Below are positions 9,114 to 32,005 of a DNA stretch of 34,389 bases, in pieces (the stretch's first letter is position 1; each line of letters starts with the position of its first letter). Source of the stretch: a virus. The stretch is taken from IMG/VR virus record IMGVR_UViG_3300035666_000099, positions 1-34,389 of that record; one strand, given 5' to 3'. The position numbers and the translations under genes are program-made. The notes beneath the pieces are model-generated. The model was not told where the DNA came from. It saw only the letters and a list, made by a program, of their open reading frames with translations, and searched no databases.

Positions 9114-9151
9114 ATTTTCAAATTTGTAAATTGGCTTGTTTACTCTGTTAT

Positions 9152-12065: not shown

Positions 12066-14465
12066 ATGACAACTAAAGCGTTCAAACTATTCCCCTACCA
12101 AGAAGACGCCGTGGCGCGGCATATCAAGATCCTCGACTCTGTTGGGGCCAGCCTCGACGGGACCGGCTGCGGCGGCGGAAAAACAATCATTGCGAGTGCG
12201 GTTGCGGCACGGTTTGCCATACCGACGTGTGTTATAGCGCCGAAGTCAGTGCTGGTGAAGTGGGAGAGCACCCTAGCCGCGTTCGGCGTCGTTCCACTCT
12301 TCGTCCTGAACCCAGAAAAGTTACGGAACGGGAACACGCCCTGGCTCAAAAAGATCCCGAACGGGGGTAAAAAGGTAAAGTTTGAGTGGAATATACCCGA
12401 GCGGTGTCTTTTGATTTTCGACGAAGTTCACATGTTCGGCGCACACAGCTCCCAGAACGGGAAGCTGCTCGAGACTGCGGCCGGCCATTACACCCTGATG
12501 CTCTCGGCGACCGCCGCCGAGAACCCGCTGCGAATGAAGGCGATCGGGGTCAACCTCCGGCTTTTCACGCCGAGCTACTACTGGAAGTGGGTCAGGGACA
12601 TGGGTGCCGAGAAATCGCGGTGGGGCGGCTTGGAATGGGATCCCTACACGAACAAGGACAAGATGGACCGGCTGCACCATTCGCTATTCGTGAATCGCGG
12701 ATATCGCGTGTCCGAGGAGACCCTGCGGGAACAGTTGCCGGAATTGATGACCTCGGACGAGCCGCTTTGGCTGTCGCCTGCCGATCGTGCCACCATCAAA
12801 GAACTCTATGACGAAATGTCCGATCCAGACGATCCAGGGGCCGTCAAAAACCTCCGCCAACGTCAAGTGGTCGAAGCAGTCAAAGTCCCCTACCTCGTCG
12901 AGAAAGCCAAAGAGCTGGTCGAGGCGGGAGGTTCAGTCGTCCTTTTCCTCAACTTCCATGAATCCATCGACAAGGCAAGAATCCATTTTGACGATAACTG
13001 CGTCCTCGACGGACGCGTCCCTCAAACCCAAAGAAAAAAGACCCAAGACTCCTTTCAAAAGAACGACCTCCGAGTCGTCATCGTCCAGATCGCGGCCGGC
13101 GGCCAAAGCATCGACCTACACGACCTTGACGGACGTTTCCCACGTATTGCGCTTATATGTCCCCAGTTCTCGGGGACTGTCGAGGAGCAGGCTGTTGGAC
13201 GAATCTGTCGGGTGGGTGCAAAGTCTCGGGCGCTTGCAATCCGTCTTTACGCAGGAGGAACAGTCGAGCAAGCGGCGCTGAAGTTGACCGCGCAAAAACG
13301 CCAGAATGTAGAAATTCTCAACCGAGGCAAAAATAATTTGAACGAACCCGAAACAACCGAAGTCACACCATCTATGCCCGCAGTCATAACCTCACAACCC
13401 GCCCACAGCGAGCACTCTCCCTCCTCCCTCAAACTCAAAGCAATATGTCCAGGATTCCGCAACGACCAGACGAGAGACAAGAGCGCGGCCGACAGGGGAA
13501 CTCTCGGGCATCTGGCCGTGGAGAAGGAAAACCTAGACGTTATACCGCCGGAGGATACGCGGCTCCGCGACGCAGCCGCTATGTGCTTGAAATATCTGGC
13601 ACACCTCCGCGGCCAAACCAAGGACGCGAAGGAGATTCGCGAGAGACGTTACAAGATGCTCGATCAGTTCGGACACATCGACCATCTGATCCTGCACGGA
13701 AACAAGTGCGAGCTGGTCGACTACAAGTTTGCCTTCAGTGCCTACGAAGCGGATTCACCGCAATTTTGGGCCTACTCCGTGGGTGTTTGGGATGCCCATC
13801 CCGAGACGGAAATCGTCACCGCCCACGTCGTCCTTCCATTTCAAGGGGCTATTGATGTCGAGTCGTGGTCGCGGTCATCCGACTACGAGCGGCTCTCGGC
13901 GCAAACCGCCGCGATCATCGAAGCGGCTCGACGCAATAACCCCGAGACTTATCAGACCGGCTCCCACTGCGCGTGGTGCGGCCAACGGGCCGTCTGCCCG
14001 AAGCTGAACAACCTCGCGCTCGCCGTGGCGAGCCAATACAAACCCGAGGAGCTGACCTTGCCGGACAAATACGATCCGGCCCTGATCGACGATCCGCTCG
14101 TCATGGCAACGGCCAAGCGACTTGGCCCGATCCTCAAATCGTGGGCCGAGAAAGTCGACCAACGCGCCTTGGAAATGCGGCTGCACGAAGGGATCGAAAT
14201 CCCCGGCTTCGAGCTGGCCGAGCGGTCGGCCCCTTTCAAAATCGTCGACGCGCAGGCTGCGTGGGACGTGGTCAAAGACACAATCACACCGGAAGCCTTC
14301 GCAGCCTGCGCCGACGTGTCGATAGGCGACTTGGAGAAAGCGGTGGCGAGAACGGCCAAACGCGGGACGATGAAGTCGGCCAAGGAAGAACTGCGCTGCG
14401 CCTTACTTGACGCCAACGCCGCCAAATCGGAGGGCCGCATCCACTTTCTACGAAAAACAATTTAG
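12066..14465 (+). CDS. SF2 helicase fused to Cas4/DUF2800-like nuclease
   Basis: A 799-aa protein. Helicase part: Walker A GTGCGGGKT (residues ~32-40), motif II DEVH (~118), motif III SAT (~148), and motif VI QAVGRICRVG (~376-385). Nuclease part from ~residue 450: GTLGHLAVE, FGHIDHLI and ELVDYKF giving the D and (D/E)xK elements, then CAWCGQRAVCPK (~634-645), a Cys cluster that may bind a Fe-S cluster or zinc as in Cas4/AddB-type nucleases. Such a protein could unwind and resect DNA for recombination. The linker (residues ~430-455) contains an ATG at 13374 and the gene-junction motif at 13386-13399, so two polypeptides or a recent fusion are possible. Confidence 0.82.
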   Translation: MTTKAFKLFPYQEDAVARHIKILDSVGASLDGTGCGGGKTIIASAVAARFAIPTCVIAPKSVLVKWESTLAAFGVVPLFVLNPEKLRNGNTPWLKKIPNGGKKVKFEWNIPERCLLIFDEVHMFGAHSSQNGKLLETAAGHYTLMLSATAAENPLRMKAIGVNLRLFTPSYYWKWVRDMGAEKSRWGGLEWDPYTNKDKMDRLHHSLFVNRGYRVSEETLREQLPELMTSDEPLWLSPADRATIKELYDEMSDPDDPGAVKNLRQRQVVEAVKVPYLVEKAKELVEAGGSVVLFLNFHESIDKARIHFDDNCVLDGRVPQTQRKKTQDSFQKNDLRVVIVQIAAGGQSIDLHDLDGRFPRIALICPQFSGTVEEQAVGRICRVGAKSRALAIRLYAGGTVEQAALKLTAQKRQNVEILNRGKNNLNEPETTEVTPSMPAVITSQPAHSEHSPSSLKLKAICPGFRNDQTRDKSAADRGTLGHLAVEKENLDVIPPEDTRLRDAAAMCLKYLAHLRGQTKDAKEIRERRYKMLDQFGHIDHLILHGNKCELVDYKFAFSAYEADSPQFWAYSVGVWDAHPETEIVTAHVVLPFQGAIDVESWSRSSDYERLSAQTAAIIEAARRNNPETYQTGSHCAWCGQRAVCPKLNNLALAVASQYKPEELTLPDKYDPALIDDPLVMATAKRLGPILKSWAEKVDQRALEMRLHEGIEIPGFELAERSAPFKIVDAQAAWDVVKDTITPEAFAACADVSIGDLEKAVARTAKRGTMKSAKEELRCALLDANAAKSEGRIHFLRKTI
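13386..13399 (+). promoter_or_regulatory. Gene-junction 14-mer inside the helicase-nuclease reading frame
   Basis: ATAACCTCACAACC, an exact match to the ATAACCTCNNNACC motif seen before many starts. Here it is translated as part of the linker (VITSQP). It follows an in-frame ATG (13374) by nine bases. The same string with a C in place of the T stands before the start at 4112. Confidence 0.5.
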
Positions 14466-19015: not shown

Positions 19016-20533
19016 ATGAAATACCTTTCCGTCTGTTCCGGCATCGAAGCGGCCTCGGTCGCGTGGGAGCCGCTCGGCTGGCAACCAGCCGCGTTCTCCG
19101 AAATCGAACCCTTTCCTTCGGCGGTGCTCGCCCACCACTGGCCGTCGGTTCCCAACATGGGCGACATGACTAAATATGAAGAATGGAAACTTGATCCAAT
19201 CGGAATTCTGGTCGGCGGAACGCCATGCCAGTCCTTCTCCGTCGCCGGCCTCCGCAAAGGTCTCAAAGACTCGCGGGGAGGACTCATGCTTACCTATCTG
19301 GAAATCGCTCAACATTTTCGGCCTCGATGGATTGTCTGGGAAAACGTCCCCGGCGTCCTCAGTTCAAACGGAGGACGGGACTTTGGTTCCTTCCTCGGGG
19401 CGTTGGGCGACTTGGGGTATGGGTGGGCTTATCGCGTGCTCGATGCTCAGTGGGTCAGAACACAACGGCATCCCCGTGCCGTCGCGCAACGCAGGCGACG
19501 TGTGTTCGTTGTCGGATGTCTTGGAGACCCGATCCGTGCCGCCAAGGTTCTATTTGAGTCCGAAAGCGTGTGCCGGGATTATAAGGCGGGCGGCAAAAAG
19601 AAACAAAGTCCTGCCGGAGCATCTTCGCCGCGCTCTGGAAGCGGGATCCAAGTCGCCGGAGCCCTCGACACCCAATGCGGTGGCGGCAAGCTGACCCACC
19701 AATCTCTGGCCAACGGCCACGTCGTCGGCGCTCTCTCGGCGGAAGACGGCGAGCAGGGGCTCACCACAGTCCAAGCAGCCAAGTCGGGGATGCTGATCGC
19801 CACGGGCGACGGGCAGACTGCCGATCCGCTCACGGCGCACGAAGCCAATACTTACACGCACGAAGGCTCCACGTTCCGGCTGCGGAATTGCGTGGCGCTA
19901 CAAGACACCACGACGCGGGAGAAAGGCCAGAACGGCAAGGGCTGGAGCGACGATGGCTCAAGCTACACGCTGGACGCCGCCGCGACTCAGGGAGTTGCAA
20001 CCATCGCGCCTCCCCTCACCCGCAATCCCTACGGCGACCACGAGTCCCGCGAAGGCGTCCTCGTTCCGGCCCGCATGGCGGCGTTCGGCGAATACGTGGA
20101 AGACGAGACCGCATCGACCATGAAGGCCCGTGACTTCCGCGACGCGACGGACTTGGTTGCCCACTCGCTGAGAGGCGAAGGGTTCGACGCAAGCGAAGAC
20201 GGCACAGGACGCGGGACGCCGATTGCCGTCGACACCTACAACCAGACAGTCAGCGATACCTCGCAAGCCATTTCATCGGCGGCGAGCGACATCAACCACA
20301 CCGGCGGGGTGATCGTGCCGCACGCCGTCCGCCGCCTCACCCCCACGGAGTGTGAAAGGCTTCAAGGCTTTAATGACGGACACACCCTCATCCCTTGGAA
20401 GGGTAAACCCGCCGACCAATGCCCTGACGGGCCACGCTACAAAGCCCTCGGTAACTCGATGGCCGTGAACTGTATGGAATGGATCGGCCAACGCATCGCT
20501 TTCTACGAACATCATAACCTAACAACCCCATGA
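19016..20533 (+). CDS. C5-cytosine DNA methyltransferase
   Basis: From the ATG at 19016 it has 505 aa. Motif I LSVCSGIEAASVAW (~3-16), motif IV GGTPCQSFSVAG with catalytic PCQ (~68-79), motif VI WENVPGV (~107-113), motif VIII AQRRRRVFVVG (~156-166), and motifs IX/X RRLTPTECERLQGF and YKALGNSMAVN (~440-490). It places methyl groups on cytosine in phage DNA, likely shielding it from host restriction. The target-recognition region between motifs VIII and IX is ~270 residues long, with Gly/Ser/Thr-rich repeats such as ATGDGQTADPLTAHEANTY and SQAISSAASDINHTGG, a phage-type variant. An upstream TTG start is rejected because it would lie in the previous gene. The final codons overlap the next gene by four bases. 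Confidence 0.92.
   Translation: MKYLSVCSGIEAASVAWEPLGWQPAAFSEIEPFPSAVLAHHWPSVPNMGDMTKYEEWKLDPIGILVGGTPCQSFSVAGLRKGLKDSRGGLMLTYLEIAQHFRPRWIVWENVPGVLSSNGGRDFGSFLGALGDLGYGWAYRVLDAQWVRTQRHPRAVAQRRRRVFVVGCLGDPIRAAKVLFESESVCRDYKAGGKKKQSPAGASSPRSGSGIQVAGALDTQCGGGKLTHQSLANGHVVGALSAEDGEQGLTTVQAAKSGMLIATGDGQTADPLTAHEANTYTHEGSTFRLRNCVALQDTTTREKGQNGKGWSDDGSSYTLDAAATQGVATIAPPLTRNPYGDHESREGVLVPARMAAFGEYVEDETASTMKARDFRDATDLVAHSLRGEGFDASEDGTGRGTPIAVDTYNQTVSDTSQAISSAASDINHTGGVIVPHAVRRLTPTECERLQGFNDGHTLIPWKGKPADQCPDGPRYKALGNSMAVNCMEWIGQRIAFYEHHNLTTP
20514..20527 (+). promoter_or_regulatory. Gene-junction 14-mer before the primase-helicase
   Basis: ATAACCTAACAACC lies within the last codons of the methyltransferase (HNLTTP) and two bases before the primase ATG (20530). 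It differs from the consensus at one base. Confidence 0.5.
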
Positions 20534-22929
20534 ATCTTGACCATGCCCCCGAAGACTTCGGCTTGGACCGCTGTCCAACCGCCGGAGAAGGATGCCACGG
20601 CTGGATGTATAAAGCCGCCCACCGGCTTGTCGCCGCCGGATTTGACGACAACGAGATCGAGGAATGGATCGACGCTTGGCTCGGCCGACCCGCCCAACCC
20701 CGCGAGATCGCCAACACCCTTTCCAAGGTCCGCGCCGAAGTCGAAGGCAAGATCCCGCCGCGCAAGACAGTCGGAGCCAAACGCCCGAAGGACGAAGCCG
20801 CGATAGCCAAGCTGCTCGAGGCCGGTCCGACCTCGGTCGAGGAGTTCATGGCAACCAGTCCGGTTGATGTGAGTGAAGTGGGCGCCAGCACAGTCCTGCG
20901 CGCACTATTCGGATGCCCCGACAGCAGCAACCAAGCAAAGACCATCCTCTTCACCGACATGCTCTCCCAAGGGCAGCTCGTCTGGTCGCCCAAGACGGAC
21001 GACGAGGATGTGGTGCGCCTAGGCCGCACGAATACCGAGGGCGCATGGTTTCTCCTCAACCCGGTGACCGGCGACTGGACTCCCCGCGACGAGGCCAAAC
21101 CGACCCGCCGCTCGGAGTCGAGCCTCACCGCTTACCGACACGTCCTGATCGAAGCCGACAACATGCCACTGGAAGAGTGGCTTACTATCTTGCGTGGAGT
21201 AACATTACCGATCGTGTCTGTAACCCTGTCTGGAAATGCCTCGGCCCATGCCATTGTCAGGGTGGACGCAGCCGATCGTGACGAATGGCTCGCCGCGGCC
21301 AAACAAATTGCCGACGTGGTCGTTCCGCTCGGAGCCGATCCGAACGCCATCACTGCCGTCCGGCTCACGCGCCTTCCAGGGGTGACGCGAAAAGACAACG
21401 GAAAAAGCCAATCGCTGATCTACTTCAATCCGAATGCCGAAAAATTGGCCGTTAATAGCCCAACCCCGTCGAAATCCACGGAATCGGAAGGAGGGGGTCA
21501 AATTGCCGCCCCCCTTGCCGAGGACAGCACAAACGATGCTTTAGCCGCCGGAAACGGGGATAGCGCCTCACCAGAGATGTCCAAACCGCCCACCAATGCG
21601 AATAAAGGCGGACGCTTTGAAGACATTTACTACGACGGTAAGGCGTTCTTCATGCGCTCGGCCGAGGGAATCTGGTGCTACGAAATGACCTCCGTGCTGA
21701 CCAGCACGCTGAAGACCCGCGGATGCTCGGATCGCGTCCCGAAAGGCGGAACCTGCTCACAGCTCGACACCGCCAAAGAGGAACTGCGCCGCAAGCGAAG
21801 GGTTCACGGCGCCGGACCGAGGCTCTACAGCCAGAGCGAGGTCTGGTTTGAGGGCGGCAAGAAATACCTCAACACCGCCACAGTGAAGGTGACACCGGCC
21901 GCGCCGGAGGCCGGAGCCTGGGGCGAACACTTCCCGCGCTACGCCAGCGTCCTCGACAACGTCTTCACCCTGCCGGACTACAAGGACACCTTCCTTGCGT
22001 GGGCCAAACGATTCTACGAGTCGGCCGAGGCCGGTGATCTCAAGCTCGGCCAAGCACTCATCATGTGCGGCCCCGTGCACTGCTTCAAAACCTTCCTGAT
22101 CGAGAAGCTCCTCGCTCCGGCGATGGGCGGCTATGCCGACCTCTCTTCGATCGTCTCGGGCGAGGGCAACGGGTTCAACTCGGAGCTGTTCCACTCTCCC
22201 CTCGCCGTGATCGACGACTCCAAAGCCGCCGAGAGCGAGGCCCAACTCAACCGCTACGCCAGCGCGGTCAAGAAGCTCGCCGCCCACGGACGCCACAAAT
22301 ACCACGAGAAGTTCGTCACGCCGATCCTCGTGGAATGGAAAGGCCGTGTGGTCATCGCCGCCAACGACGACGTGGTCTCGATCAAAGCCGTCCCCACCCT
22401 GGACGTATCCAACGAGGACAAGCTCATCGTCTTGGCCATGCAGTCTTGGGAAGACCAGCCCGGCCCCGAGTATTTCGCCAACGTGGAAAAAGACGAGCTG
22501 CCGCACCTTCTGGCTTGGCTCAAGGCTTGGACGATCCCCTTCCGCCTCACCGACCCGACTAGCCGCTACGGCATCCGCAGCATCATCGCCACGGAGATCC
22601 GCGCCAAGATCGAAGCCTCTGGCGCCAAAGCCGAGCTGCGCGACACCCTGAACGCTTGGTGGCGGCGCAAGCCCGACGAGGAACGCAAGGTGGCGTGGGA
22701 AGGCACGACCGTCGATCTGCATCAATCGTTCCACACCATCTTCGACAACACGTCGCTGACCAACCAGTGGCCGGTGCGGATTCTAGGAAGGCGGCTTGGG
22801 GACTTGGCCACGACTCCCGACTCGGGCGTCTCGGTAGTCTCCAAACGCTACGGCAAGGATAAGGTGACTTTGTGGCGGATCGAACCGCCGGCAGTCGAGA
22901 CACCGGACGAAGACCAAGATCCGTTCTGA
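20530..22929 (+). CDS. Primase-helicase (AEP-like primase region, SF3/DUF5906 helicase)
   Basis: A 799-aa protein. Residues ~1-75 (GWMYKAAHRLVAAGFDDNEIEEWIDAWLGR) resemble PriCT-type accessory domains. Residues ~190-320 (YRHVLIEADNMPLEEW, VTLSGNASAHAIVRVDAADRDEW, DPNAITAVRLTRLPGVTR) look like an archaeo-eukaryotic primase fold. After a low-complexity linker (~320-355), the C-terminal SF3-type helicase has Walker A MCGPVHCFKTFLIEKLL (~512-528), Walker B LAVIDDSKA (~556-564), and VVIAANDDVVSIKAVP, a sensor-like strand. It would prime and open the origin. A 600-bp non-coding region follows directly, the usual place for an origin. Confidence 0.85.
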   Translation: MNLDHAPEDFGLDRCPTAGEGCHGWMYKAAHRLVAAGFDDNEIEEWIDAWLGRPAQPREIANTLSKVRAEVEGKIPPRKTVGAKRPKDEAAIAKLLEAGPTSVEEFMATSPVDVSEVGASTVLRALFGCPDSSNQAKTILFTDMLSQGQLVWSPKTDDEDVVRLGRTNTEGAWFLLNPVTGDWTPRDEAKPTRRSESSLTAYRHVLIEADNMPLEEWLTILRGVTLPIVSVTLSGNASAHAIVRVDAADRDEWLAAAKQIADVVVPLGADPNAITAVRLTRLPGVTRKDNGKSQSLIYFNPNAEKLAVNSPTPSKSTESEGGGQIAAPLAEDSTNDALAAGNGDSASPEMSKPPTNANKGGRFEDIYYDGKAFFMRSAEGIWCYEMTSVLTSTLKTRGCSDRVPKGGTCSQLDTAKEELRRKRRVHGAGPRLYSQSEVWFEGGKKYLNTATVKVTPAAPEAGAWGEHFPRYASVLDNVFTLPDYKDTFLAWAKRFYESAEAGDLKLGQALIMCGPVHCFKTFLIEKLLAPAMGGYADLSSIVSGEGNGFNSELFHSPLAVIDDSKAAESEAQLNRYASAVKKLAAHGRHKYHEKFVTPILVEWKGRVVIAANDDVVSIKAVPTLDVSNEDKLIVLAMQSWEDQPGPEYFANVEKDELPHLLAWLKAWTIPFRLTDPTSRYGIRSIIATEIRAKIEASGAKAELRDTLNAWWRRKPDEERKVAWEGTTVDLHQSFHTIFDNTSLTNQWPVRILGRRLGDLATTPDSGVSVVSKRYGKDKVTLWRIEPPAVETPDEDQDPF

Positions 22930-23981: not shown

Positions 23982-24093
23982 CCTATGCGGCGCGGCGGGT
24001 CTACAGAGGGACGGTGGTGGGTTGGGTGGTGGGTCTACAGATATGAAAGCCGCGCCCTTTACTCTATCAACATGAGTATTTGTGCCGCATAGG
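23982..24093. repeat. Nested inverted repeats with internal direct repeats
   Basis: CCTATGCGGC (23982-23991) is the exact complement of GCCGCATAGG (24084-24093). GGCGCGGC (23989-23996) pairs with GCCGCGCC (24049-24056). The two left arms share three bases, so the pairings compete. GGGTCTACAG occurs twice between them (23997-24006, 24031-24040). A small ACTC-GAGT hairpin lies at 24061-24077. It could be a switchable RNA or a protein-bound DNA site. Confidence 0.5.
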
Positions 24094-24096
24094 TGC

Positions 24097-24117
24097 ATGA
24101 GGCGTGAACCATGAATC
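24097..24117. repeat. Heptamer repeat tract 2
   Basis: Three 7-base units ATGAGGC, GTGAACC, ATGAATC directly follow the GCCGCATAGG arm of the nested inverted repeats. Confidence 0.45.
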
Positions 24118-24417
24118 TTGGCTCATGTCTCTGATCCACAGCAACTTACGCCAATTCCTCAAAAACTGAGGCTAACAGAGTAGGATCGAAAAGACCCGCT
24201 GCCTTAAATATATGTCGGCCTCATTCGGCCTGCCCTTTCTCCATCGGTTTGCTCGCTTGGCTGCTTGGATTCGGCAAAGCGGACAAGCAGTAGGGCATAA
24301 CCTCTGTGGTGATTAACAGAGTAATTCGGGGGGATCCCTCCCTTTGTTTATGGAGACGGCGACATGAGTCGCTCCGATCCGAAACAAACACCCTATGACA
24401 CGAAGGGATGAAGTCGT

Positions 24418-24434
24418 AGTCAGATTGTCTGACT
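24418..24434. promoter_or_regulatory. 17-bp palindrome, copy 1
   Basis: AGTCAGA-TTG-TCTGACT, a perfect 7-3-7 dyad, 27 bases before the ATG at 24462. Same arms as five other copies downstream while the centre differs, as expected for an operator or a three-base-loop RNA hairpin. Confidence 0.65.
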
Positions 24435-24461
24435 GCTGCTTGTCGTGTCTTTAAAAAACGT

Positions 24462-24881
24462 ATGGACAAAAACCAAAGCAACAAACAACGCGCAGCCTTG
24501 GCCGCGCTCGTGCAATCCGTTCGCGCTGGCCACAAGGCCGCCGAGAACGTGGCGAAGTTCGGCAAGGCGGCAATCGCCGCTGGCGTGACACGCGATCAAT
24601 TCGTCGCGGCGTTGCAGAAGATGTGGGGCATGAGCAAGCACCGCGTCGGCAGCAAAAACTACCGCGCCATCGTTTCCCGCGTCAGCTATTGGACGCTGCA
24701 AGCGGGATACGACAAGCGCCGCAAAGACGACAAGGCTCCGGCCAAACCCGTCTCCGTTCCTCGCGGCGCCGTCGAGGCCGTGTTGGAAATGCTCGTCAAC
24801 AACTTCAACGTGGACGAGGACGCGGTCGCTGCCGTTGTCCGTGCCATCGCGGCCAAGGCGAATGGCTTCGTCGTTGAATAG
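24462..24881 (+). CDS. Hypothetical helical protein, 139 aa
   Basis: First gene of the accessory arm. MDKNQSNKQRAALAALVQSVRAGHKAAENVAKFGKAAIAAGVTRDQFVAALQKMW... is Ala-rich and basic, mostly helical, with a linker at ~85-98 (KRRKDDKAPAKPVSVP) and an acidic C-terminal helix pair. Composition suggests a small nucleic-acid-binding or scaffold protein; I recognise no family. The stop TAG lies inside the second palindrome copy (24880-24896). Confidence 0.6.
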   Translation: MDKNQSNKQRAALAALVQSVRAGHKAAENVAKFGKAAIAAGVTRDQFVAALQKMWGMSKHRVGSKNYRAIVSRVSYWTLQAGYDKRRKDDKAPAKPVSVPRGAVEAVLEMLVNNFNVDEDAVAAVVRAIAAKANGFVVE

Positions 24882-24896
24882 TCAGACGATCTGACT
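24880..24896. promoter_or_regulatory. 17-bp palindrome, copy 2
   Basis: AGTCAGA-CGA-TCTGACT, perfect. It starts within the stop codon of the 139-aa gene and lies 14 bases before the next ATG (24911). This copy has no large hairpin upstream, unlike copies 3-6. Confidence 0.65.
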
Positions 24897-24910
24897 AACT
24901 GCACAACACC

Positions 24911-25102
24911 ATGAAAGTGGAACAAACGACAACGAAACCGAAACGCCGCAAGCGTTTCCACGAGAACACGTCCGAGAGTTACGATCTCGGATTCCAACCC
25001 GTCGCCAAAGAGGACATGGACGCCCGTTCACGTTACCTCGCGGCGAACAACCGACACTTCGGGGCGAACATTGGGTTTGCCCTCGAGCGTGTCTCCAAGT
25101 AA
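24911..25102 (+). CDS. Small basic hypothetical protein, 63 aa
   Basis: MKVEQTTTKPKRRKRFHENTSESYDLGFQPVAKEDMDARSRYLAANNRHFGANIGFALERVSK. A basic N-terminal patch (KPKRRKRF) and a compact C-terminal region. The start context is CACAACACCATG without a Shine-Dalgarno. It ends in AAGTAATAACC, where the gene-junction motif begins. No family recognised. Confidence 0.55.
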   Translation: MKVEQTTTKPKRRKRFHENTSESYDLGFQPVAKEDMDARSRYLAANNRHFGANIGFALERVSK

Positions 25103-25115
25103 TAACCGCATCACC

Positions 25116-25150
25116 ATGAACCATGAAGCATGAAGCACGCAGCATGTTCC
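25116..25150. repeat. Heptamer repeat tract 3
   Basis: Five 7-base units ATGAACC, ATGAAGC, ATGAAGC, ACGCAGC, ATGTTCC follow the junction motif ATAACCGCATCACC (25102-25115). It supplies four ATG codons in two frames, so it blurs which start is used for the next gene. Confidence 0.55.
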
Positions 25151-25296
25151 TTGACGCGGAGCCTTCCGACGAAGTTGCGGAGGCCCCAGAGTGGCGGCCC
25201 GGCCAGACAACGCCGCCTGAACCCGACGAAAGCGGACAATCGTTCGGTTGCTACCATCCTGCACGGGATGAACGCGGAGGTTGCTATGCGGAATAG
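25144..25296 (+). CDS. Small acidic protein, 50 aa
   Basis: MFLDAEPSDEVAEAPEWRPGQTTPP followed by EPDESGQSFGCYHPARDERGGCYAE. Acidic, proline-rich, with two Cys and a His near the end. An in-frame ATG at 25123 inside the heptamer tract would add seven residues. Its last codons contain the Shine-Dalgarno and start of the membrane peptide, a coupled arrangement. A competing frame across the same stretch is basic and low complexity, so I prefer this one. Function unknown. Confidence 0.4.
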   Translation: MFLDAEPSDEVAEAPEWRPGQTTPPEPDESGQSFGCYHPARDERGGCYAE

Positions 25297-25375
25297 CCAG
25301 CTCAAGACCGAGTGTCTCGAGAAGCTGGTCATTCTCGCCCTGCTCCTCGTGTGGCTCATCTTTGCCTTGATGTAA
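25286..25375 (+). CDS. Tiny membrane peptide, 29 aa
   Basis: MRNSQLKTECLEKLVILALLLVWLIFALM: one hydrophobic helix at the C-terminus (residues ~14-29). GGAGG lies five bases before the ATG, good evidence for translation. A longer frame from 25130 exists, but its N-terminal part competes with the acidic gene. It ends in TAATAACC. Confidence 0.5.
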   Translation: MRNSQLKTECLEKLVILALLLVWLIFALM

Positions 25376-25386
25376 TAACCACGCAG

Positions 25387-25471
25387 GAGATTACCCGCTC
25401 CCTTCTTTGCGGGAGGGAGCGGCCATCTCATGCGCGGCGAGTGCCGTGAATGGGAGTCAGACGATCTGACT
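25387..25471 (+). promoter_or_regulatory. Three-hairpin leader module with palindrome copy 3
   Basis: Outer stem GAGAT (25387-25391) with ATCTC (25425-25429); inner stem CCGCTCCC (25395-25402) with GGGAGCGG (25415-25422). A small CGGC-gagt-GCCG hairpin (25435-25446) follows, then AGTCAGA-CGA-TCTGACT (25455-25471). Directly after comes TAAATCAAACAACTAA, shared with copy 4, then the start region of the MGLDMY gene. Without a clear U-run it is not a plain terminator. Confidence 0.62.
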
Positions 25472-25501
25472 AAATCAAACAACTAAATGGAGGTATCCAA
25501 T

Positions 25502-25966
25502 ATGGGATTAGACATGTATCTGACCGCGTCCAAGTATGTTGGGCGTTGGTCTCACGGAAACGAAAAAGAAAAGCAAGCATACGACGCGATTACCAAAGCC
25601 GCAGGGCTTGGCGGTTTCGTCTGCGATGAATCGCCATCACTCAACGTTGAGTTGAATGTGGCGTATTGGCGCAAGGCCAACGCCGTTCACCAATGGTTCG
25701 TCGATAACGTGCAGGGCGGCGAGGACAACTGCTCCCGCTTCTACGTGAGCAGGGACAGCATGAGCGAACTCGTCACGCTCTGCAAAAAAGTGATCAAGAC
25801 GGGCGATGCAAGCGAGTTGCCGCCGCAATCGGGGTGCTTCTTCGGAACCACGGAAATCGGCGACGACTACTTCTTCGACTTGAAGAACACGGTCAAGCAA
25901 CTGACCGCCGTCTTGAACGACAAGCGGTTTGATACCTGCGAGTTCTACTACCAAGCATCATGGTAA
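25502..25966 (+). CDS. Conserved 'MGLDMYL' phage protein, 154 aa
   Basis: The ATG at 25502 has GGAGG eight bases upstream. The protein begins MGLDMYLTASKYVG and contains VAYWRKANAVHQWFVDNVQGGEDNC near residues 55-80 and CFFGTTEIGDDYFFDLKNTV further on. This N-terminus and the 'YWRKANAIH.WFV..VQ' segment recur in phages as a conserved hypothetical protein. Its role is not known. The upstream ATG at 25487 would lose the Shine-Dalgarno position and is less likely. Confidence 0.72.
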   Translation: MGLDMYLTASKYVGRWSHGNEKEKQAYDAITKAAGLGGFVCDESPSLNVELNVAYWRKANAVHQWFVDNVQGGEDNCSRFYVSRDSMSELVTLCKKVIKTGDASELPPQSGCFFGTTEIGDDYFFDLKNTVKQLTAVLNDKRFDTCEFYYQASW

Positions 25967-26289
25967 TGAAACTCATCAACGGAGAGGCACGTGCCAAGGC
26001 GCATCCTGACACGTGGGAGATTCCGACCCCGCGTGAACGCATGTCGCTTGAGGCCGGCGACGTGGTCAAGCTCGGCTTCACCCTCGACGAACCGCTCGAC
26101 GGGTGCAGCGGCGAACGTCCGTGGGTCAAGGTCACTCGTGGCATGGACGCCACGGGATTCTACGAGGGCGAGATCGACAACGATCTCGTGGTCATCGACG
26201 GCCTGAAGTTCCAAGGCCGCACCATGAAGCTCGGTGCGCGGGTCAAGTTCAAGCCCAAGCACGTGTTGGATCGCTACGTCTGGGACTAG
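25960..26289 (+). CDS. DUF2314-like protein, 109 aa
   Basis: LEAGDVVKLGFTLDEPLDGCSGERPWVKVTRG ... FYEGEIDNDLVVIDGLKFQGRTMKLGARVKFKPKHVLDRYVWD matches the DUF2314 pattern (G..VKL.F ... ERPWV.V ... F.G.i.N ... G..V.F ... i.D). These domains occur in small stand-alone proteins of unknown biochemical role. It overlaps the previous stop (ATGGTAATGA); ATGs at 25960 and 25966 are both possible. A nested hairpin follows the stop immediately. Confidence 0.68.
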   Translation: MVMKLINGEARAKAHPDTWEIPTPRERMSLEAGDVVKLGFTLDEPLDGCSGERPWVKVTRGMDATGFYEGEIDNDLVVIDGLKFQGRTMKLGARVKFKPKHVLDRYVWD

Positions 26290-26371
26290 CGAGACACACC
26301 ACTCCCTGCCCCCACAGGGAGTGTCAGTCTCGCAGCCTCATGGCTGTCGGGAATTGTCAGACGATCTGACT
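26289..26371 (+). promoter_or_regulatory. Three-hairpin leader module with palindrome copy 4
   Basis: Outer stem GCGAGAC (26289-26295) with GTCTCGC (26327-26333), 7 bp; inner stem ACTCCCTG (26301-26308) with CAGGGAGT (26315-26322), 8 bp. Small hairpin CAGCC-tcat-GGCTG (26333-26346), then TGTCAGA-CGA-TCTGACT (26355-26371), with one arm-end mismatch. It is followed by the same TAAATCAAACAACTAA as copy 3 and then the 204-aa gene. Confidence 0.65.
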
Positions 26372-26403
26372 AAATCAAACAACTAACATGGAGAAAACTA
26401 ACC

Positions 26404-27018
26404 ATGCCCATAGCAAAACCCAACCTCGCTGGCATCGGCGTCAAGCCGAAGGCCAGCACCAAGAAGAACTACCCCGAGCTGCCCAGCACTCCCGAGACGG
26501 AGTCGCTGGTCGCCGACTACATCAACCTCGTCGCCGAGCTTGACGCCCTTGAGGGTGACATGAAGCTCAAGCGTTCGACGTTGGTTGAGCAAGCGCGGTC
26601 GTTCTTCTTCCCGCACTACCACGGCAAGACGGATGTCGAGTCGTCGGTCGAAGCCAAGTCCGCCACGGGCGAGTCGCTGCTCGTCACGTTCTCGTCCCGC
26701 TACAAAGCGGTGCCGGACGAGTCCCTGATCACCGACATCGTCGGCCCCGACCTGACCGAGCGGTTCTTCCAGAGCCGCTACGAGATCAAGATCGACGGCG
26801 ACAAGATCCCCGTGGGCAAGGCCGACGAGCTGCTCGGCAAGATGGTCGAGCTGTTCCAGAGCTACAGCGCAGCCGATGCGCTCTCCCAGAAGTCGGTCAT
26901 CTGCCCGACGCCGGAGTTCCATACGGCACGGCACACGGCGTTGAGTGTTGAGCAGAACCTCGCCATCGACAACGCCTGCCCCATCGTGGTGTCGGTCAAG
27001 ACGAAAGGCCGCAAGTGA
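26404..27018 (+). CDS. Hypothetical protein, 204 aa
   Basis: MPIAKPNLAGIGVKPKASTKKNYPELPSTPETESLVADYINLVAELDALEGDMKLKRSTLVEQARSFFF.... A short Pro/Lys-rich N-terminal tail leads to a helical hairpin (VADYINLVAELDALEGDMKLKRSTLVEQA), then a beta-containing domain. I recognise no family. Strong GC-rich codon use, ATGGAGAAAACTAACCATG leader without a standard Shine-Dalgarno. It shares its operon with the ligase-like gene, so a nucleic-acid role is possible. Confidence 0.62.
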   Translation: MPIAKPNLAGIGVKPKASTKKNYPELPSTPETESLVADYINLVAELDALEGDMKLKRSTLVEQARSFFFPHYHGKTDVESSVEAKSATGESLLVTFSSRYKAVPDESLITDIVGPDLTERFFQSRYEIKIDGDKIPVGKADELLGKMVELFQSYSAADALSQKSVICPTPEFHTARHTALSVEQNLAIDNACPIVVSVKTKGRK

Positions 27019-27245
27019 AGATATACAAACTTGCCGTGTGTCGCACGATGCGTGTTGTTGCTGACCTCTACATCGAAGGCGACAGCGAAGAAGACGCCAA
27101 GGCTCGTTTCCAGCATCAGTTGGAGAGCGAATCGTGCAGCCAGCTTGAAGACGCAGCTATGTGGGGAGAGATCTTCTACTACTGCATCGACAAAGCCGGC
27201 CCCTATGCGAGCGACTACGAAGTCGTGGACGTGAGCGAAGAATGA
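27015..27245 (+). CDS. Hypothetical acidic protein, 76 aa
   Basis: Starts with GTG in a GTGA overlap: MKIYKLAVCRTMRVVADLYIEGDSEEDAKARFQHQLESESCSQLEDAAMWGEIFYYCIDKAG.... A beta-strand plus helix start ('YIEGDSEEDAKARF') resembles small DpnD/PcfM-like or ferredoxin-fold phage proteins, only a weak similarity. Acidic. It overlaps the ligase-like gene start by four bases. Confidence 0.55.
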   Translation: MKIYKLAVCRTMRVVADLYIEGDSEEDAKARFQHQLESESCSQLEDAAMWGEIFYYCIDKAGPYASDYEVVDVSEE

Positions 27246-27868
27246 ACCCGCCAACCTATCCGGCCCGCCCGATGAACGGCGGGTCGCTGGAGAAAGCGCG
27301 TCAGAAAATCAATCCTGATGCGTGGGTCTACGAACCGAAGATCAACGGCTGGCGCGTGCTGATCGACGTGAGGAACAAGCTCATGTGGTCACGCTACAAC
27401 CAGCCGTCCTCGGTCGAGCATAAGTATGCGTCCGTCCTCGACAGACTCGCTGACGCGCTTCGCGGCGCGTTCTGCGACAAGCCGGTGTGGCTCGACGGCG
27501 AGATCCTCGGGCAGCGCGCCTCCTGCGTGGGGCGCGGTTCGCTCGTCGTGTTCGACGCGATCATACCGCACGCGGCGTTTAGCCCGTGGTTTGAACAGCG
27601 TCGTTGGCTCGACGTGGTCATGTCCGACGTGAGCGAAGACTGGGACATCAATGCCCTGCCCAAGCAGGACACGATCTACCGGCTGCCTCATGTCGGTGAC
27701 GCAGTCGCCGAGGGCTTCTACGAGAGACTCAAGGCGGCCAACGCACGGCTCGGAGTCGAGCTGTATGAAGGGGTCGTCGCCAAGCGCGCCGACAAAGCAT
27801 ACCCGATCCAACTCCGTTCTCCCGCACAGGAGACGACCGATTGGATCAAGCATCGTTGGAAATACTAG
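27242..27868 (+). CDS. ATP-dependent ligase-like nucleotidyltransferase (minimal)
   Basis: The ATG at 27242 gives 208 aa. Motif I EPKINGWR has the adenylated Lys (~33) but reads K-x-N-G instead of the usual K-x-D-G. Motif III/IIIa VWLDGEILG (~82-90) and VVFDAI (~101-106), motif IV EGVVAKR (~177-183) and motif V WIKHRW (~201-206) follow in order. These are nucleotidyltransferase motifs of ATP-dependent DNA/RNA ligases. The protein ends right after motif V, so there is no OB-fold and motif VI is absent. It would seal nicks in phage DNA or RNA; which nucleic acid it uses is undecided. Confidence 0.7.
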   Translation: MNPPTYPARPMNGGSLEKARQKINPDAWVYEPKINGWRVLIDVRNKLMWSRYNQPSSVEHKYASVLDRLADALRGAFCDKPVWLDGEILGQRASCVGRGSLVVFDAIIPHAAFSPWFEQRRWLDVVMSDVSEDWDINALPKQDTIYRLPHVGDAVAEGFYERLKAANARLGVELYEGVVAKRADKAYPIQLRSPAQETTDWIKHRWKY

Positions 27869-27882
27869 AAAGGAGGTGACGC

Positions 27883-28383
27883 ATGAAGATGTCTGTCGAA
27901 ACAGCGATGGAGATATGGAAGTTAGGAGGCGGCGTAGCCGCATCCGAATGGCAGGAGAAGACGCCCGGCTGGAGCCGACGCGGCCCGATTTATCGGCGCC
28001 GTCCGACGCCGGTCTACTGCTTGGAATACGAACGACAAAAGCTCGAAGACCTCGCTAACCACGAACATAGCTCGGGCCACGACCCTTATTGGTTGACCAT
28101 CCTGACCAATGTGATGCGCCGTGTCCCGAAGGCCCGCAAGGTTATTGTCGTGGCCGACGCAGCTAGTCTGCGGTCATCGTGCGAGCTTGCCAAGATTCCC
28201 ATGCCGCAACGCAATGTTGACGGCTCGTGGAATGTGGGCGGCATCGTCGCCACGCCCGAGGTTTGGGCCGAGAGCGCACGCAAGTTCACCGAAGCATTCG
28301 GCCCGAGGCATGAAGCCGAACCACGCTACGCGTGGCAGGAGCTTGCCAAAAGGCTTGCCTCTCCAGCCGTCATGGCATCATAA
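27883..28383 (+). CDS. Hypothetical protein, 166 aa
   Basis: A perfect Shine-Dalgarno AAAGGAGGTGACGC precedes the ATG. MKMSVETAMEIWKLGGGVAASEWQEKTPGWSRRGPIYRRRPTPVYCLEYERQKLEDL... The middle (VPKARKVIVVADAASLRSSCEL) looks like a beta-helix Rossmann-type strand, not enough for a family. Basic N-terminal half. Its stop opens the junction motif ATAACCTC (28380-28387), and a structured leader follows. Confidence 0.58.
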   Translation: MKMSVETAMEIWKLGGGVAASEWQEKTPGWSRRGPIYRRRPTPVYCLEYERQKLEDLANHEHSSGHDPYWLTILTNVMRRVPKARKVIVVADAASLRSSCELAKIPMPQRNVDGSWNVGGIVATPEVWAESARKFTEAFGPRHEAEPRYAWQELAKRLASPAVMAS

Positions 28384-28396
28384 CCTCGCAAGTTAT

Positions 28397-28474
28397 GAGA
28401 CCCGCGCCCCCTGCCCCCACGGGGGGCGTCAGTCTCGCAACTGAAGTTGCCGAGATTAGTCAGGCCATCTGACT
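28397..28474 (+). promoter_or_regulatory. Three-hairpin leader module with palindrome copy 5
   Basis: Outer stem GAGAC (28397-28401) with GTCTC (28432-28436); inner stem CGCCCCC (28405-28411) with GGGGGCG (28422-28428); small hairpin GCAAC-tgaa-GTTGC (28437-28450). Then AGTCAGG-CCA-TCTGACT (28458-28474), with one arm substitution (G opposite T). A junction motif ATAACCTCAACACC follows (28476-28489). The downstream gene is the vWA protein. Confidence 0.65.
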
Positions 28475-28513
28475 AATAACCTCAACACCCACTAGAAAGA
28501 AAACCAAAAACCT

Positions 28514-30229
28514 ATGCCCATTAAATACTACACGTCGCATCTGAAGACCGTGGTGGACGACCATCACATCGACTATCGGACACGCGGACGTTTGCCCGAG
28601 ACCTACGACGTGACGTGGGTCGACAAGCGGCACCCCTGCAAGACGGGTTGCTGGAAGTTCAACCACGCCACGGGTCGCCACGAGATCCGCTTGTCGGTCG
28701 TGGCTTACCCCACGATCGCCAAAGGCGGACCGGCCGAAGGCAAGCGCATTGCGGTTCCCGACTTGTATCGCAATGTCTACGAGCATGAGGCAGCTCATTC
28801 GCTCTACACGGACAAAGACCTCATCGGTCTCGGCAAGGAGTTGGCCTCACGGAAGATTCCGTGGCGGCTGATGAACTTGTTTGAGGACTGCCGCATCGAG
28901 CGTCTGTGGATACGGAACGAACGCAGCTTCAAGCAGTTCGGCTGGAAGCGTTGGGAGCCGCATGGCGATCCCGACAAGACAAGTGCGACAGGTTTGCTGT
29001 TTGCCTTGAAGAACGAGGGCGTTACGCCGGGCGGTCGTTTGCCCACGGCTGTCGTCCGTCACTTCAGCAAGCACAAGAACCTGCGATCAGTCGTCCGCTA
29101 CTTCAGCGACATCCTCCGTGCGCCGGACACCAAGAGCCTGATTCCCATTCTGGAACGCTGGCTCAAGGAGTTCCCTGCCACGGGCGACGACACGATGGAG
29201 GGCGAAGGCGGCGACGGCACCGGCGATTTGGGAGAGGCCATCGGCGAGGCAAGCGGCGGCACCAAGCCGTCCGATGTCAAAGCCAAGGATCCCAAGGGGA
29301 ACGGCGCTGCGCGTGACAAAGCCGAATCGTCATCGTCCGGCGAGGACGGCGATGGCGGCAAGCCGAGTGAAGAAAGCACCCGCGCCAAGAGTTGCGAGAC
29401 ACCCTCGCATGGCTCCGGCACGGTTGGCGGCAAGGCGTCGGCGGTCATCCCGACCTCGGCCGACGAGACGCGTTACGCGTTGATGCTTTCCCGCATGTTG
29501 GCATCGGCCTTCCGCAAGAAAGGCGCCACGGCCAAGGGGCCGACCTCGGTCGCCTCTCGCAAGCTCAACATGCGCGGCATCATCCGCCGCGATTGGCTGC
29601 GTCCGTTCATCGGCAAGGTGTTCGGCAACACGAGCAAGCCGCATATCCCGCTCGTCATCGACTGCTCCGGCAGCATGGCGGCCCTCACGTTTGTCGATCG
29701 CGAATGCAAAGTCAGCAAGCGCACCGACGATTGCGCCCGCATCCTCGTGCGTGCGTTCAACGAGCTAACACGGCGCGGCCTCATCACCTGCACTGTCTAT
29801 TGCACGGCGCAAGGTGGCTGCCATGCACGCGCTGTCTTGCCCGTGCGTGAGGCGGACATCACCGGACGCGGCAGCAAGATACGCATCGAAGCCTTCAGCG
29901 GCAACGAGGGTATCGGCAAGACGCTGCGACCGATGACCACGGATGCTTTGTATAATTACGAGCATCCCAAAACGACAGGCTCGTTCTTCAACGAGATCGT
30001 CGCCAACTCGAAAGTCGCCATCGTCTACACCGACGGCCAGATCACCGACGCTCCCGTCAATCGTGTCCCGTTGCACGCACGCGGTCTCTATACCGTGGGC
30101 GTTTACGCGGGCGTTCACGACTTCACCGAGGAGCTTCGCAAACACTTCGACTATGCGGTCAGCCGCAACTCGTTGTGGTCGGTCGCCGATGCGCTTGTCC
30201 GCACGATGCAGACCATCCCGACCAAGTAA
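28514..30229 (+). CDS. Metallopeptidase-like/vWA domain protein (MoxR partner)
   Basis: A 571-aa protein. The N-terminal domain contains VYEHEAAHSLYTD, an HExxH zinc motif (~92-96), and NLFEDCRIERLW (~120-131), with a Glu placed to complete a gluzincin-type site. A disordered, charged linker (residues ~225-320: EGGDGTGDLGE ... SSSSGEDGDGGKPSEE) follows. The C-terminal vWA domain has the MIDAS motif DCSGSM (~382-387) and VYTDGQITD (~505). This is the CobT/vWA partner type that works with MoxR-type AAA+ ATPases in remodelling or maturing protein complexes. The matching AAA+ gene follows directly. The target in a phage is unknown. Confidence 0.8.
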   Translation: MPIKYYTSHLKTVVDDHHIDYRTRGRLPETYDVTWVDKRHPCKTGCWKFNHATGRHEIRLSVVAYPTIAKGGPAEGKRIAVPDLYRNVYEHEAAHSLYTDKDLIGLGKELASRKIPWRLMNLFEDCRIERLWIRNERSFKQFGWKRWEPHGDPDKTSATGLLFALKNEGVTPGGRLPTAVVRHFSKHKNLRSVVRYFSDILRAPDTKSLIPILERWLKEFPATGDDTMEGEGGDGTGDLGEAIGEASGGTKPSDVKAKDPKGNGAARDKAESSSSGEDGDGGKPSEESTRAKSCETPSHGSGTVGGKASAVIPTSADETRYALMLSRMLASAFRKKGATAKGPTSVASRKLNMRGIIRRDWLRPFIGKVFGNTSKPHIPLVIDCSGSMAALTFVDRECKVSKRTDDCARILVRAFNELTRRGLITCTVYCTAQGGCHARAVLPVREADITGRGSKIRIEAFSGNEGIGKTLRPMTTDALYNYEHPKTTGSFFNEIVANSKVAIVYTDGQITDAPVNRVPLHARGLYTVGVYAGVHDFTEELRKHFDYAVSRNSLWSVADALVRTMQTIPTK

Positions 30230-30237
30230 CTCCGCTC

Positions 30238-30325
30238 GGGAGACACAGCGCCCCTTCCAATTCCGGAGGGGGCGCACGTCTCCCCGCAACCCATGTTGCG
30301 GAGGAGTTTGTCAGACAGTCTGACT
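30238..30325 (+). promoter_or_regulatory. Three-hairpin leader module with palindrome copy 6
   Basis: Outer stem GGGAGAC (30238-30244) with GTCTCCC (30278-30284); inner stem GCGCCCCTTCC (30248-30258) with GGAGGGGGCGC (30265-30275), one G-U; small hairpin CGCAAC-ccat-GTTGCG (30285-30300); then TGTCAGA-CAG-TCTGACT (30309-30325). This is the most complete module, directly before the AAA+ ATPase. Confidence 0.68.
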
Positions 30326-30363
30326 AAACGAAACGATAGAAACTACAGAAAGAAACAAAACCT

Positions 30364-31698
30364 ATGGGTAAATACACAAACGAACAAATCAACGGCATGT
30401 CTTATGGCGTAGCCAAAGCTGCTGTCCGTGAGGAATACGGCAAAGACGGAGCCAAGGGCTGGTGGGTCTCGGAGGCAACGACGGATCTGCTCAAGTCCCT
30501 GCTCAAAGGCGAGGTCACTCCCGCCGATGCGATGGCCAAAGTCGTGGCGGCCAAGGCTGCCAAGGCCGGACTGCCCACGGGCGGCGGGGGCATCGACCCC
30601 ACGGCGCTCAAGCCGATCGAGGACAAGCTCAACGACTTGGCGGCCAAGCAAGTTGTGCTCGACGCCGAGACCAAGAAGTTGATCGGCGACCTCGACAGCG
30701 AGACGCGCAAGATGCTCGGCGAGACCAACGACACGTTCGTCAAGTTGCAGGACGAGATCAAAGCGGCGCTCGCGGCTGGCCCGAAAGCGGCGGCGGCCAT
30801 CGCCCCGCTCCTCGGCGTGGCTACCACGTCGTCGTCTGATCCCGTGCTGGCTGTGTTGGAGCGTTACTGCGCTCCAGGTCGCGCCGTCAAGCCCGTCATC
30901 GTTCGCGGTGAGCCGGGCAGCGGCAAGACCTACGGCGCACGCTTGCACGGCCAGACCGCAGGGTTCGATCGCTACATCGAGTTCGGCATCCACGAGCAGA
31001 CTGAGGCTAGCGAGTTCCTCGGCAACTTGTCGCCCGATCCGGCCATCGGCTGGATGGACGGCCCGTTGACCGAAGCGTTCCGCGCAGCAGCCAGCGGCTT
31101 GACCGTGTTGCTCTGCCTCGACGAGTATTACCGCTCAATGGGCGGCGCACGCACGCCGTTGCTCACGGCGACCTCTCCCGCCCGCTTGCCGAGCGGTGAG
31201 AAGGTCTACCGCCTCCGCACCGGCCGCGCCATCCTCGACCCTGCCACGGGGGCTTACGTCTCCGAGGTCATCGAGGCGCCTGTCTGCAACCTCGCCATCG
31301 TCGCCACGACCAACGTCGGCGCGCAGTTCAACGTCGATCTCGGCTGCCCCGCCGAGCGCGAACGCTTCAAAGCCGTCCACGTGGACGTTGACGAGGCCAA
31401 GCTCCGCTCGGTCTGCGCTGCCGTCGCATCGGCCAAGGGCTTCAGCCCCGCCGTGGTGGAACGCATCATCGCGTTCTACCGCCAATGCAAGATCCTCAAG
31501 CAGGACGGATTCGTCGAGCATTGCCCGTCGACCCGACTCCTGTCCGAGGCCATCGAGTTCGCCGACAGCGAGACGAACATCAAGTCGTCGATCCGCGACA
31601 TCGGCATCGACATCTGGGCGGGCCTGACCATCGAAGGCAAGCCCGAGACCGAGCAGATCAAGCGCATCGACGCGGCTCTCAACAAGGCGTTCGCATAA
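30364..31698 (+). CDS. MoxR/CbbQ-type AAA+ ATPase
   Basis: A 444-aa protein. N-terminal ~140 residues are helical with a coiled coil (LKPIEDKLNDLAAKQVVLDAETKKLIGDL). AAA+ core: Walker A VRGEPGSGKTYGARL (~180-193), Walker B LLCLDEYYRS (~248-257), sensor 1 LAIVATTNVGAQ (~310-321), and an Arg-rich ERERFK (~331-336) acting as arginine-finger candidate. This matches MoxR/CbbQ/NorQ-like ATPases, which act with vWA partners to remodel or activate target complexes. The vWA partner is the gene just upstream. Start context is AAACAAAACCTATG. Confidence 0.82.
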   Translation: MGKYTNEQINGMSYGVAKAAVREEYGKDGAKGWWVSEATTDLLKSLLKGEVTPADAMAKVVAAKAAKAGLPTGGGGIDPTALKPIEDKLNDLAAKQVVLDAETKKLIGDLDSETRKMLGETNDTFVKLQDEIKAALAAGPKAAAAIAPLLGVATTSSSDPVLAVLERYCAPGRAVKPVIVRGEPGSGKTYGARLHGQTAGFDRYIEFGIHEQTEASEFLGNLSPDPAIGWMDGPLTEAFRAAASGLTVLLCLDEYYRSMGGARTPLLTATSPARLPSGEKVYRLRTGRAILDPATGAYVSEVIEAPVCNLAIVATTNVGAQFNVDLGCPAERERFKAVHVDVDEAKLRSVCAAVASAKGFSPAVVERIIAFYRQCKILKQDGFVEHCPSTRLLSEAIEFADSETNIKSSIRDIGIDIWAGLTIEGKPETEQIKRIDAALNKAFA

Positions 31699-31716
31699 CC
31701 TGCTCACCTTGCAACC

Positions 31717-31744
31717 GCCCCTCTCCCAGAAACGGGAGGGGGGC
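31717..31744 (+). terminator. Hairpin after the AAA+ gene
   Basis: GCCCCTCTCCC (31717-31727) pairs with GGGAGGGGGGC (31734-31744), 11 bp with one G-U, then ATTTCAT. A possible rho-independent terminator with a short U-run, ~30 bases before the next ATG. There is no 17-bp palindrome here, unlike the modules upstream, but the junction motif ATAACCTGCTCACC (31695-31708) precedes it. Confidence 0.55.
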
Positions 31745-31774
31745 ATTTCATCAACCAAGAAAGGAAACAAAACC

Positions 31775-32005
31775 ATGTTAGAAATCATCACCCGTCCGCT
31801 CCTCACAGGAGATACCGAACTCGACTACGCCGACATCCCCACGCCGGAACACGTCGAGGCCGAAGTCCAACGCATCGAATACGAGCGCAACTCGTGGGCC
31901 CGCAAACGCTATTCGGCGTTCGCCAACTACGACGTTGACGCACTCACCTTCGACGAGCCGGGCTTCATTGTCCCAGACCATGAACCCGTGGAGGAGTTTC
32001 TATGA
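31775..32005 (+). CDS. Small acidic hypothetical protein, 76 aa
   Basis: MLEIITRPLLTGDTELDYADIPTPEHVEAEVQRIEYERNSWARKRYSAFANYDVDALTFDEPGFIVPDHEPVEEFL. Start at 31775 follows AAGAAAGGAAACAAAACC, the leader type seen before other genes here; an upstream TTG at 31709 would run through the hairpin. Acidic, one helix (VEAEVQRIEYERNSWARKRYS). Overlaps the next gene by ATGA. No family. Confidence 0.6.
   Translation: MLEIITRPLLTGDTELDYADIPTPEHVEAEVQRIEYERNSWARKRYSAFANYDVDALTFDEPGFIVPDHEPVEEFL

Follow-up and report, generated by a model that had tools for sequence, protein, structure and literature searches.

A lineage-specific palindrome repeated before the accessory genes of a phage family, and a candidate reader gene that is replaced along with it

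The window analyzed here, a 34.4-kb fragment (34,389 nucleotides [nt]) of IMG/VR virus record IMGVR_UViG_3300035666_000099 whose phage we call W, carries an array of accessory genes in whose leaders a 17-bp dyad, AGTCAGA-N3-TCTGACT, occurs six times. Dyad 1 (AGTCAGATTGTCTGACT, 24418–24434) lies within the leader of the first array gene, gene 1 (139 amino acids [aa], 24462–24881, plus strand), and dyad 2 (AGTCAGACGATCTGACT, 24880–24896) overlaps the end of that gene, with the next open reading frame (ORF) 14 nt downstream. Dyads 3 (AGTCAGACGATCTGACT, 25455–25471), 4 (TGTCAGACGATCTGACT, 26355–26371), 5 (AGTCAGGCCATCTGACT, 28458–28474), and 6 (TGTCAGACAGTCTGACT, 30309–30325) follow farther along the array. 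Related phages have palindromes of their own in the same slot: the sites are repeated, private to lineages, and placed between genes, they co-occur with gene 1 and are replaced jointly with it, and some leaders bear two tags. Judging from sequence, we assign a probability of about 0.7 to the reading that the dyads are DNA operators of one network, read by a dimeric regulator encoded by gene 1 that acts as a stoperator-like repressor within the transcription unit.

An earlier note on this DNA had placed six dyads here, and their positions and centres all proved correct. It had also described the arms as kept, which is so in the three copies that match AGTCAGA-N3-TCTGACT exactly (dyads 1–3), but dyads 4 and 6 begin with T and dyad 5 has G at position 7. 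With up to three mismatches allowed, the pattern has seven matches in the window against 0.98 expected, and 0 of 100 dinucleotide shuffles reach seven. A search of viral contigs for the exact pattern returned 87 stretches, with more than one copy only in G001, an IMG/VR contig near-identical to the window; single 14-base matches are what chance would give in a collection this large.

Relatives were drawn from IMG/VR and found with PolA and with a primase alignment. Their DNA polymerase and primase are ~54%–75% identical to those of the window, and an accessory-gene array sits behind the primase in each; as single-protein queries, the AAA and VWA-like proteins of the array matched only G001. 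Among phage records, the primase has its best named relative in an Akkermansia phage, with 32% identity across 29% of the query; as to the host, this is no more than a hint.

Eleven private palindrome types occupy the same pre-gene slot in this family, with 4–12 copies each. They are AGTCAGA-N3-TCTGACT in W and G001; AATCAGAA-N2-TTCTGATT in G003, G005, and G006; ACTCAACA-N2-TGTTGAGT in G004; AGTCCGTTAACGGACT in G022; AGTCGCAAACGCGACT in G023 and L102; TTGTCCGGAATTCCGGACAA in G024 and L190; TTGTCGGAATTCCGACAA in L180; TGTCCG-N5-CGGACA in L179 and L189; TTGTTCG-N4-CGAACAA in L182; WATCCGTT-N-AACGGATW in L192 and L193; and TTGTCCGTGNCACGGACAA in L201. Tabulated against phages, the types fall almost entirely on the diagonal; clear departures are the mutual remnants among G003, G004, and G006 and the partial overlap of the TGTCCG types. 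The palindromes span 16–20 bp, with short arms and a centre of 0–5 bp, and some are near-perfect down to the centre. Although ~70%–85% of the array is coding, the tags are mostly intergenic and commonly stand 10–50 nt upstream of a start codon. In G009, G012, and G016 the slot is filled by 11–16 copies of an asymmetric 14-bp sequence, GTGCTGGCCTCTTA, all in one orientation and just before genes. Such an array is located at 13451–19324 of L158, with equivalents in G012 and G016.

Replacement of tag and gene 1 together is seen between G003 and G004, which are ~93% identical over much of the genome. Their alignment breaks off at 1605, shortly ahead of dyad 1, and picks up again at 2083, shortly past dyad 2; the two gene 1 products show no sequence relationship, and the dyads of the array differ too. 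Among the G003 genes that lack a G004 match, gene 1 alone has a counterpart in the same place in all dyad phages. The leader of one orthologous gene (product MCKLAGW...) has matching flanks in four phages but a different dyad in each. Both tag types are found together in one leader, in G003 as well as in G004; in G004 another leader has gained a new tag beside a decayed old one, while a third has lost its old tag by a 15-nt deletion. A double-tagged leader of this kind suggests an intermediate of tag change. One dyad gain, in G004 at 24961, is insertion-like, as might be left by selfish short repeats that spread without function. We considered this explanation and rejected it as the least probable of all, given that the sites are found only in the leaders of one array, track gene 1, and stay in place ahead of orthologous genes even as they change sequence together. 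Hybrid sites, half of one tag type and half like another, are present at 11559 in L102 and at 8427 and 10290 in G022 (AGTCGC...CGGACT; AGTCCC...CGGACT) and look as if caught in mid-turnover.

Gene 1 is the first gene of the array, lies between the first dyads, and encodes 126–169 aa across the phages. It is present in every dyad phage, dyads are seen wherever it was found with enough flanking sequence, and three siblings, G009, G012, and G016, have neither gene 1 nor dyads. A gene-1 profile search found a new contig, L201, for which a new private dyad had been predicted; the contig carries a new palindrome seven times, flanking gene 1 and before later genes. (A profile from all twelve rows was too divergent for searching.) G023 and L102 have a common dyad and an identical C-terminal stretch of gene 1 (the last ~45 aa), while the N-terminal part differs; this joint sharing suggests that the reading domain is the C-terminal part.

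Several results weigh against gene 1 as the reader of such a network. Searches of its product against Pfam, PHROGs, NCBIfam, PDB, and folds gave nothing convincing, and it matches no DNA-binding family or fold on record. For the window protein the AlphaFold model is poor (pLDDT 57); for the L102 protein it is better (pLDDT 79.5) and describes a small, all-helical protein, but has no PDB match. Similarity of the C-terminal part is associated with dyad similarity in all ten phages of the comparison (Mantel test, r 0.59, p 0.0002; computed without L192), but drops to r 0.28 (p 0.08) without G023 and L180, so that the association leans on the G023/L102/L180 group. Further genes besides gene 1 also differ between G003 and G004. 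Finally, a host prophage was not found, the primase search giving no host genome. A likeness of gene 1 to the N-domain of arginine repressor (E 0.0095) ranked under designed helical proteins and was not used.

The remaining array genes of the window all lie on the plus strand. Gene 1 is followed by ORFs of 63 aa (24911–25102; orthologues of 47%–51% in G003, G004, and G006) and 81 aa (25130–25375; partial matches in the same three phages), a 159-aa gene of phrog_7971, function unknown (25487–25966), and a 109-aa gene (25960–26289). Beyond these lie a 204-aa gene (26404–27018; orthologues of 45%–50% in those phages), a gene for an ATP-dependent DNA ligase-like protein (27242–27868; PF01068, E 4.3e-5, under the curated cut-off), and a 166-aa gene (27883–28383). 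A 571-aa gene (28514–30229; orthologues of 60%–61%, again in the three) has HExxH-like and DxSGS (VWA-type) motifs when read from sequence, and Pfam gives no match to it. The final gene with a dyad leader encodes an AAA-family ATPase (CobS/MoxR-like; 30364–31698; PF07728, E 3.8e-4; phrog_249, E 1e-5). Inside the 159-aa gene, at ~25640–25653, ACTCAACGTTGAGT equals the arms of the G004 dyad minus the centre.

Gene content varies among the relatives, and after dyad 3 the array of G001 departs from that of the window: another accessory gene replaces most of two genes, with fragments of the old genes left (window 25472–26083; G001 20015–20600). Such differences might be taken to mean that the dyads are recombination sites at which accessory genes are swapped. 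This too was considered and rejected as very improbable. Remnants of the old genes persist beside the new gene in G001, and across relatives unchanged flanking genes have different sites, the reverse of what cassette exchange would lead one to expect.

The array is headed by a promoter-like motif, TTAACAGAGTAA (24313–24324, plus strand), that is conserved upstream of gene 1 in relatives. It is a candidate phage promoter: it occurs once at the array head, heads other transcription units, and is not repeated at the dyads. The same motif (core TAACAGAGTAA) also lies on the opposite strand before the terminase unit (window minus strand near 9140), and it is shared by G003, G004, G022–G024, G009, G012, and G016. 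The 79 dyads show no enrichment of sigma-70 −35/−10 elements, no sigma-70 promoter match is found in 24000–31800, and promoter-like elements at a set distance from the dyads are absent. With none at the dyads and TTAACAGAGTAA present once, at the array head, the dyads probably lie inside one transcription unit, and a block to elongation of the stoperator kind is therefore favoured over classical promoter repression. An unlikely alternative, though the least so of those weighed here, is that the gene-1 protein instead turns the array on at activator or antitermination sites, for instance by local recruitment of RNA polymerase. Gene 1 leads the array behind the promoter-like motif, as early activators often do, and every gene has a site of its own; however, an activator would sit poorly with 79 dyads that lack promoter-like elements at a fixed distance, and a block is a better match for palindromes that lie past the promoter. 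The leaders, read directly, are A-rich, often with GAAAGGA. Near the dyads, the array's intergenic sequence is enriched for ATAACC / TAATAACC, which lies downstream of 10 of 79 versus 2.5 in shuffled sequence.

Upstream of dyads 3–6, on the plus strand, stand further hairpins. Before dyad 3 there is a nested hairpin (25387–25429; GAGAT:ATCTC with inner CCGCTCCC:GGGAGCGG) and a small one (25435–25446; CGGC-GAGT-GCCG). Nested hairpins likewise precede dyads 4 (26289–26333), 5 (28397–28436), and 6 (30238–30284), each with its small hairpin: CAGCC-TCAT-GGCTG (26333–26346), GCAAC-TGAA-GTTGC (28437–28450), and CGCAAC-CCAT-GTTGCG (30285–30300). These four leaders fold far better than shuffled sequence (z −4.5 to −7.1, the last for the leader of dyad 6). 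The earlier note had presented nested hairpin, small hairpin, and dyad as a fixed order, and for copies 3–6 this is so; copies 1 and 2 have no hairpins, and the order is not general among relatives. The dyad comes first in G003 at 6211 and takes the place of the small hairpin in G004 at 26334 and 26987. More distantly related phages do not always have the hairpins in the leader, and in the window a hairpin of the same class stands without a dyad at 31717–31744, after the gene ending at 31698.

The note had also read the changes in all of these stems as compensatory. For the nested hairpin the claim is upheld: across 11 leaders of the W/G003/G004/G006 lineage, 93% of cells are paired and there are 29 two-sided changes versus 10.3 ± 2.4 in shuffled and at most four in slid versions, a contrast whose independence is overstated in that the leaders were picked for folding. 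Orthologous leaders also change both arms, in the nested hairpin between G003 and G006 and in the small one between G003 and G004. The small hairpin draws mainly on that one comparison (CGCAGC/GCTGCG in G003, CGCAAC/GTTGCG in G004, the rest of the leader being identical). The results support the nested and small hairpins as RNA structures, lineage-specific and separate from the dyad. Rfam gives no match at the curated threshold. No U-tract follows the hairpins and they are not among the listed terminator-like sites; they thus lack the combination of GC-rich hairpin and U-tract that marks an intrinsic terminator. The small hairpins at 28437–28450 and 30285–30300 of the window and near 28850 in G004 have common arms, (C)GCAAC/GTTGC(G), and differing loops, and could be left over from an older type of tag.

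Compensatory change does not extend to the dyad itself. Departures from the arm consensus in 11 phages comprise 26 one-sided unpaired, seven one-sided paired, two G-U, one two-sided paired, and two two-sided unpaired changes, and because most are one-sided and break pairing, we read the dyads as DNA half-sites of a dimeric protein and not as an RNA hairpin. Control at the RNA level, in which the dyad would be an mRNA hairpin, forming with the upstream hairpins one structured regulatory RNA to which an RNA-binding gene-1 protein attaches or which a nuclease cuts, accordingly seems to us improbable, somewhat more so than activation. It would suit sites in the leader, 10–50 nt before start codons and away from the promoter, as well as the covariation of the nested and small hairpins and arms that can pair around a short loop. 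Against it, besides the lone two-sided paired change, some dyads are near-perfect palindromes to the centre, as a DNA dimer site would be, and the dyad is not always accompanied by the hairpins. The earlier note had offered a regulatory RNA, a terminator-operator unit, or a processing signal; of these, the terminator-operator unit is supported in its operator half. The dyad behaves like a DNA site and is the part general to the system; the hairpins, without a terminator's U-tract, are not bound to it.

If the dyads are operators, the small helical protein encoded by gene 1 would bind them as a dimer. Its sites, in the untranslated leaders of gene 1 and of most array genes or gene groups, would all lie downstream of the single promoter-like motif, and a bound site would probably halt or terminate transcription on the spot, giving gene 1 control over itself and each array gene. 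That the protein binds DNA, that it represses rather than activates, and that it serves immunity are each inferred; the network is plausibly part of lysogeny and immunity, a link suggested by the presence of an integrase-like gene (phrog_1). Each lineage would have its own reader and matching tag, and a switch would exchange gene 1 and the sites on either side of it, the remaining sites turning over through double-tagged leaders. We are evenly divided on a fuller version, in which each leader is a slot bearing the tag of its lineage, the network is re-specified by exchange of the reader, one sub-lineage has passed from a palindromic to an asymmetric tag with a different reader, and the reader belongs to a previously undescribed family of proteins that bind specific sequences.

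It has long been asked how a regulator that serves many sites can acquire a new specificity and keep its network intact; usually only the end result is visible, as in phage immunity groups. The closely related phages described here display intermediate states, with new sites next to old ones, sites in decay, and a reader that has been replaced. At least 11 site types with candidate readers are at hand for a direct test.

The view in the earlier note that no element of this form had been described is too strong. Cluster A mycobacteriophage-type stoperators are many phage-specific sites in short intergenic regions whose motif diverges in step with the repressor; they are 13-bp and asymmetric, in one orientation, with a known monomeric repressor, that of phage immunity, whose binding ends transcription (PMC6550527, PMC9283540). 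The sites reported here likewise lie in short intergenic regions of a transcription unit, but that of the window is palindromic, not an asymmetric 13-bp motif, and the small gene-1 protein is of no known family. The asymmetric 14-bp GTGCTGGCCTCTTA of G009, G012, and G016, in its one orientation, resembles stoperators more than the dyads do. In phage SPbeta, the SPBRE element is also repeated in several intergenic regions of one phage and is bound by the master repressor MrpR, which has a tyrosine-recombinase fold; SPBRE sites lie in promoter regions (PMC10516654). The gene 1 product is small, predicted helical, and without a known family (L102 model with no PDB match, window model poor).

Close in kind are the extended start-associated sequences (ESAS) of cluster K mycobacteriophages, inverted repeats before several non-structural genes (PMC3203893) whose consensus varies by subcluster (PMC3203893, PMC11373665). 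They are 17-bp imperfect inverted repeats with a 4–13-bp spacer, tied to a 13-bp start-associated sequence (SAS), GGGATAGGAGCCC, at the start codon and to SigA-like promoters (PMC3203893, PMC11373665). Departures from the ESAS consensus do not favour RNA pairing, and its authors propose DNA-binding proteins of differing specificity (PMC3203893). The tags described here share with ESAS a position near the starts of non-structural genes and a consensus that differs between related phages. They differ in being compact palindromes of 16–20 bp with a centre of 0–5 bp instead of spaced repeats, in leaders without the SAS GGGATAGGAGCCC, and in having no SigA-like promoter at the sites. Whereas the reader of the comparable ESAS system has yet to be identified, a candidate reader gene, which swaps with its sites, can be named here.

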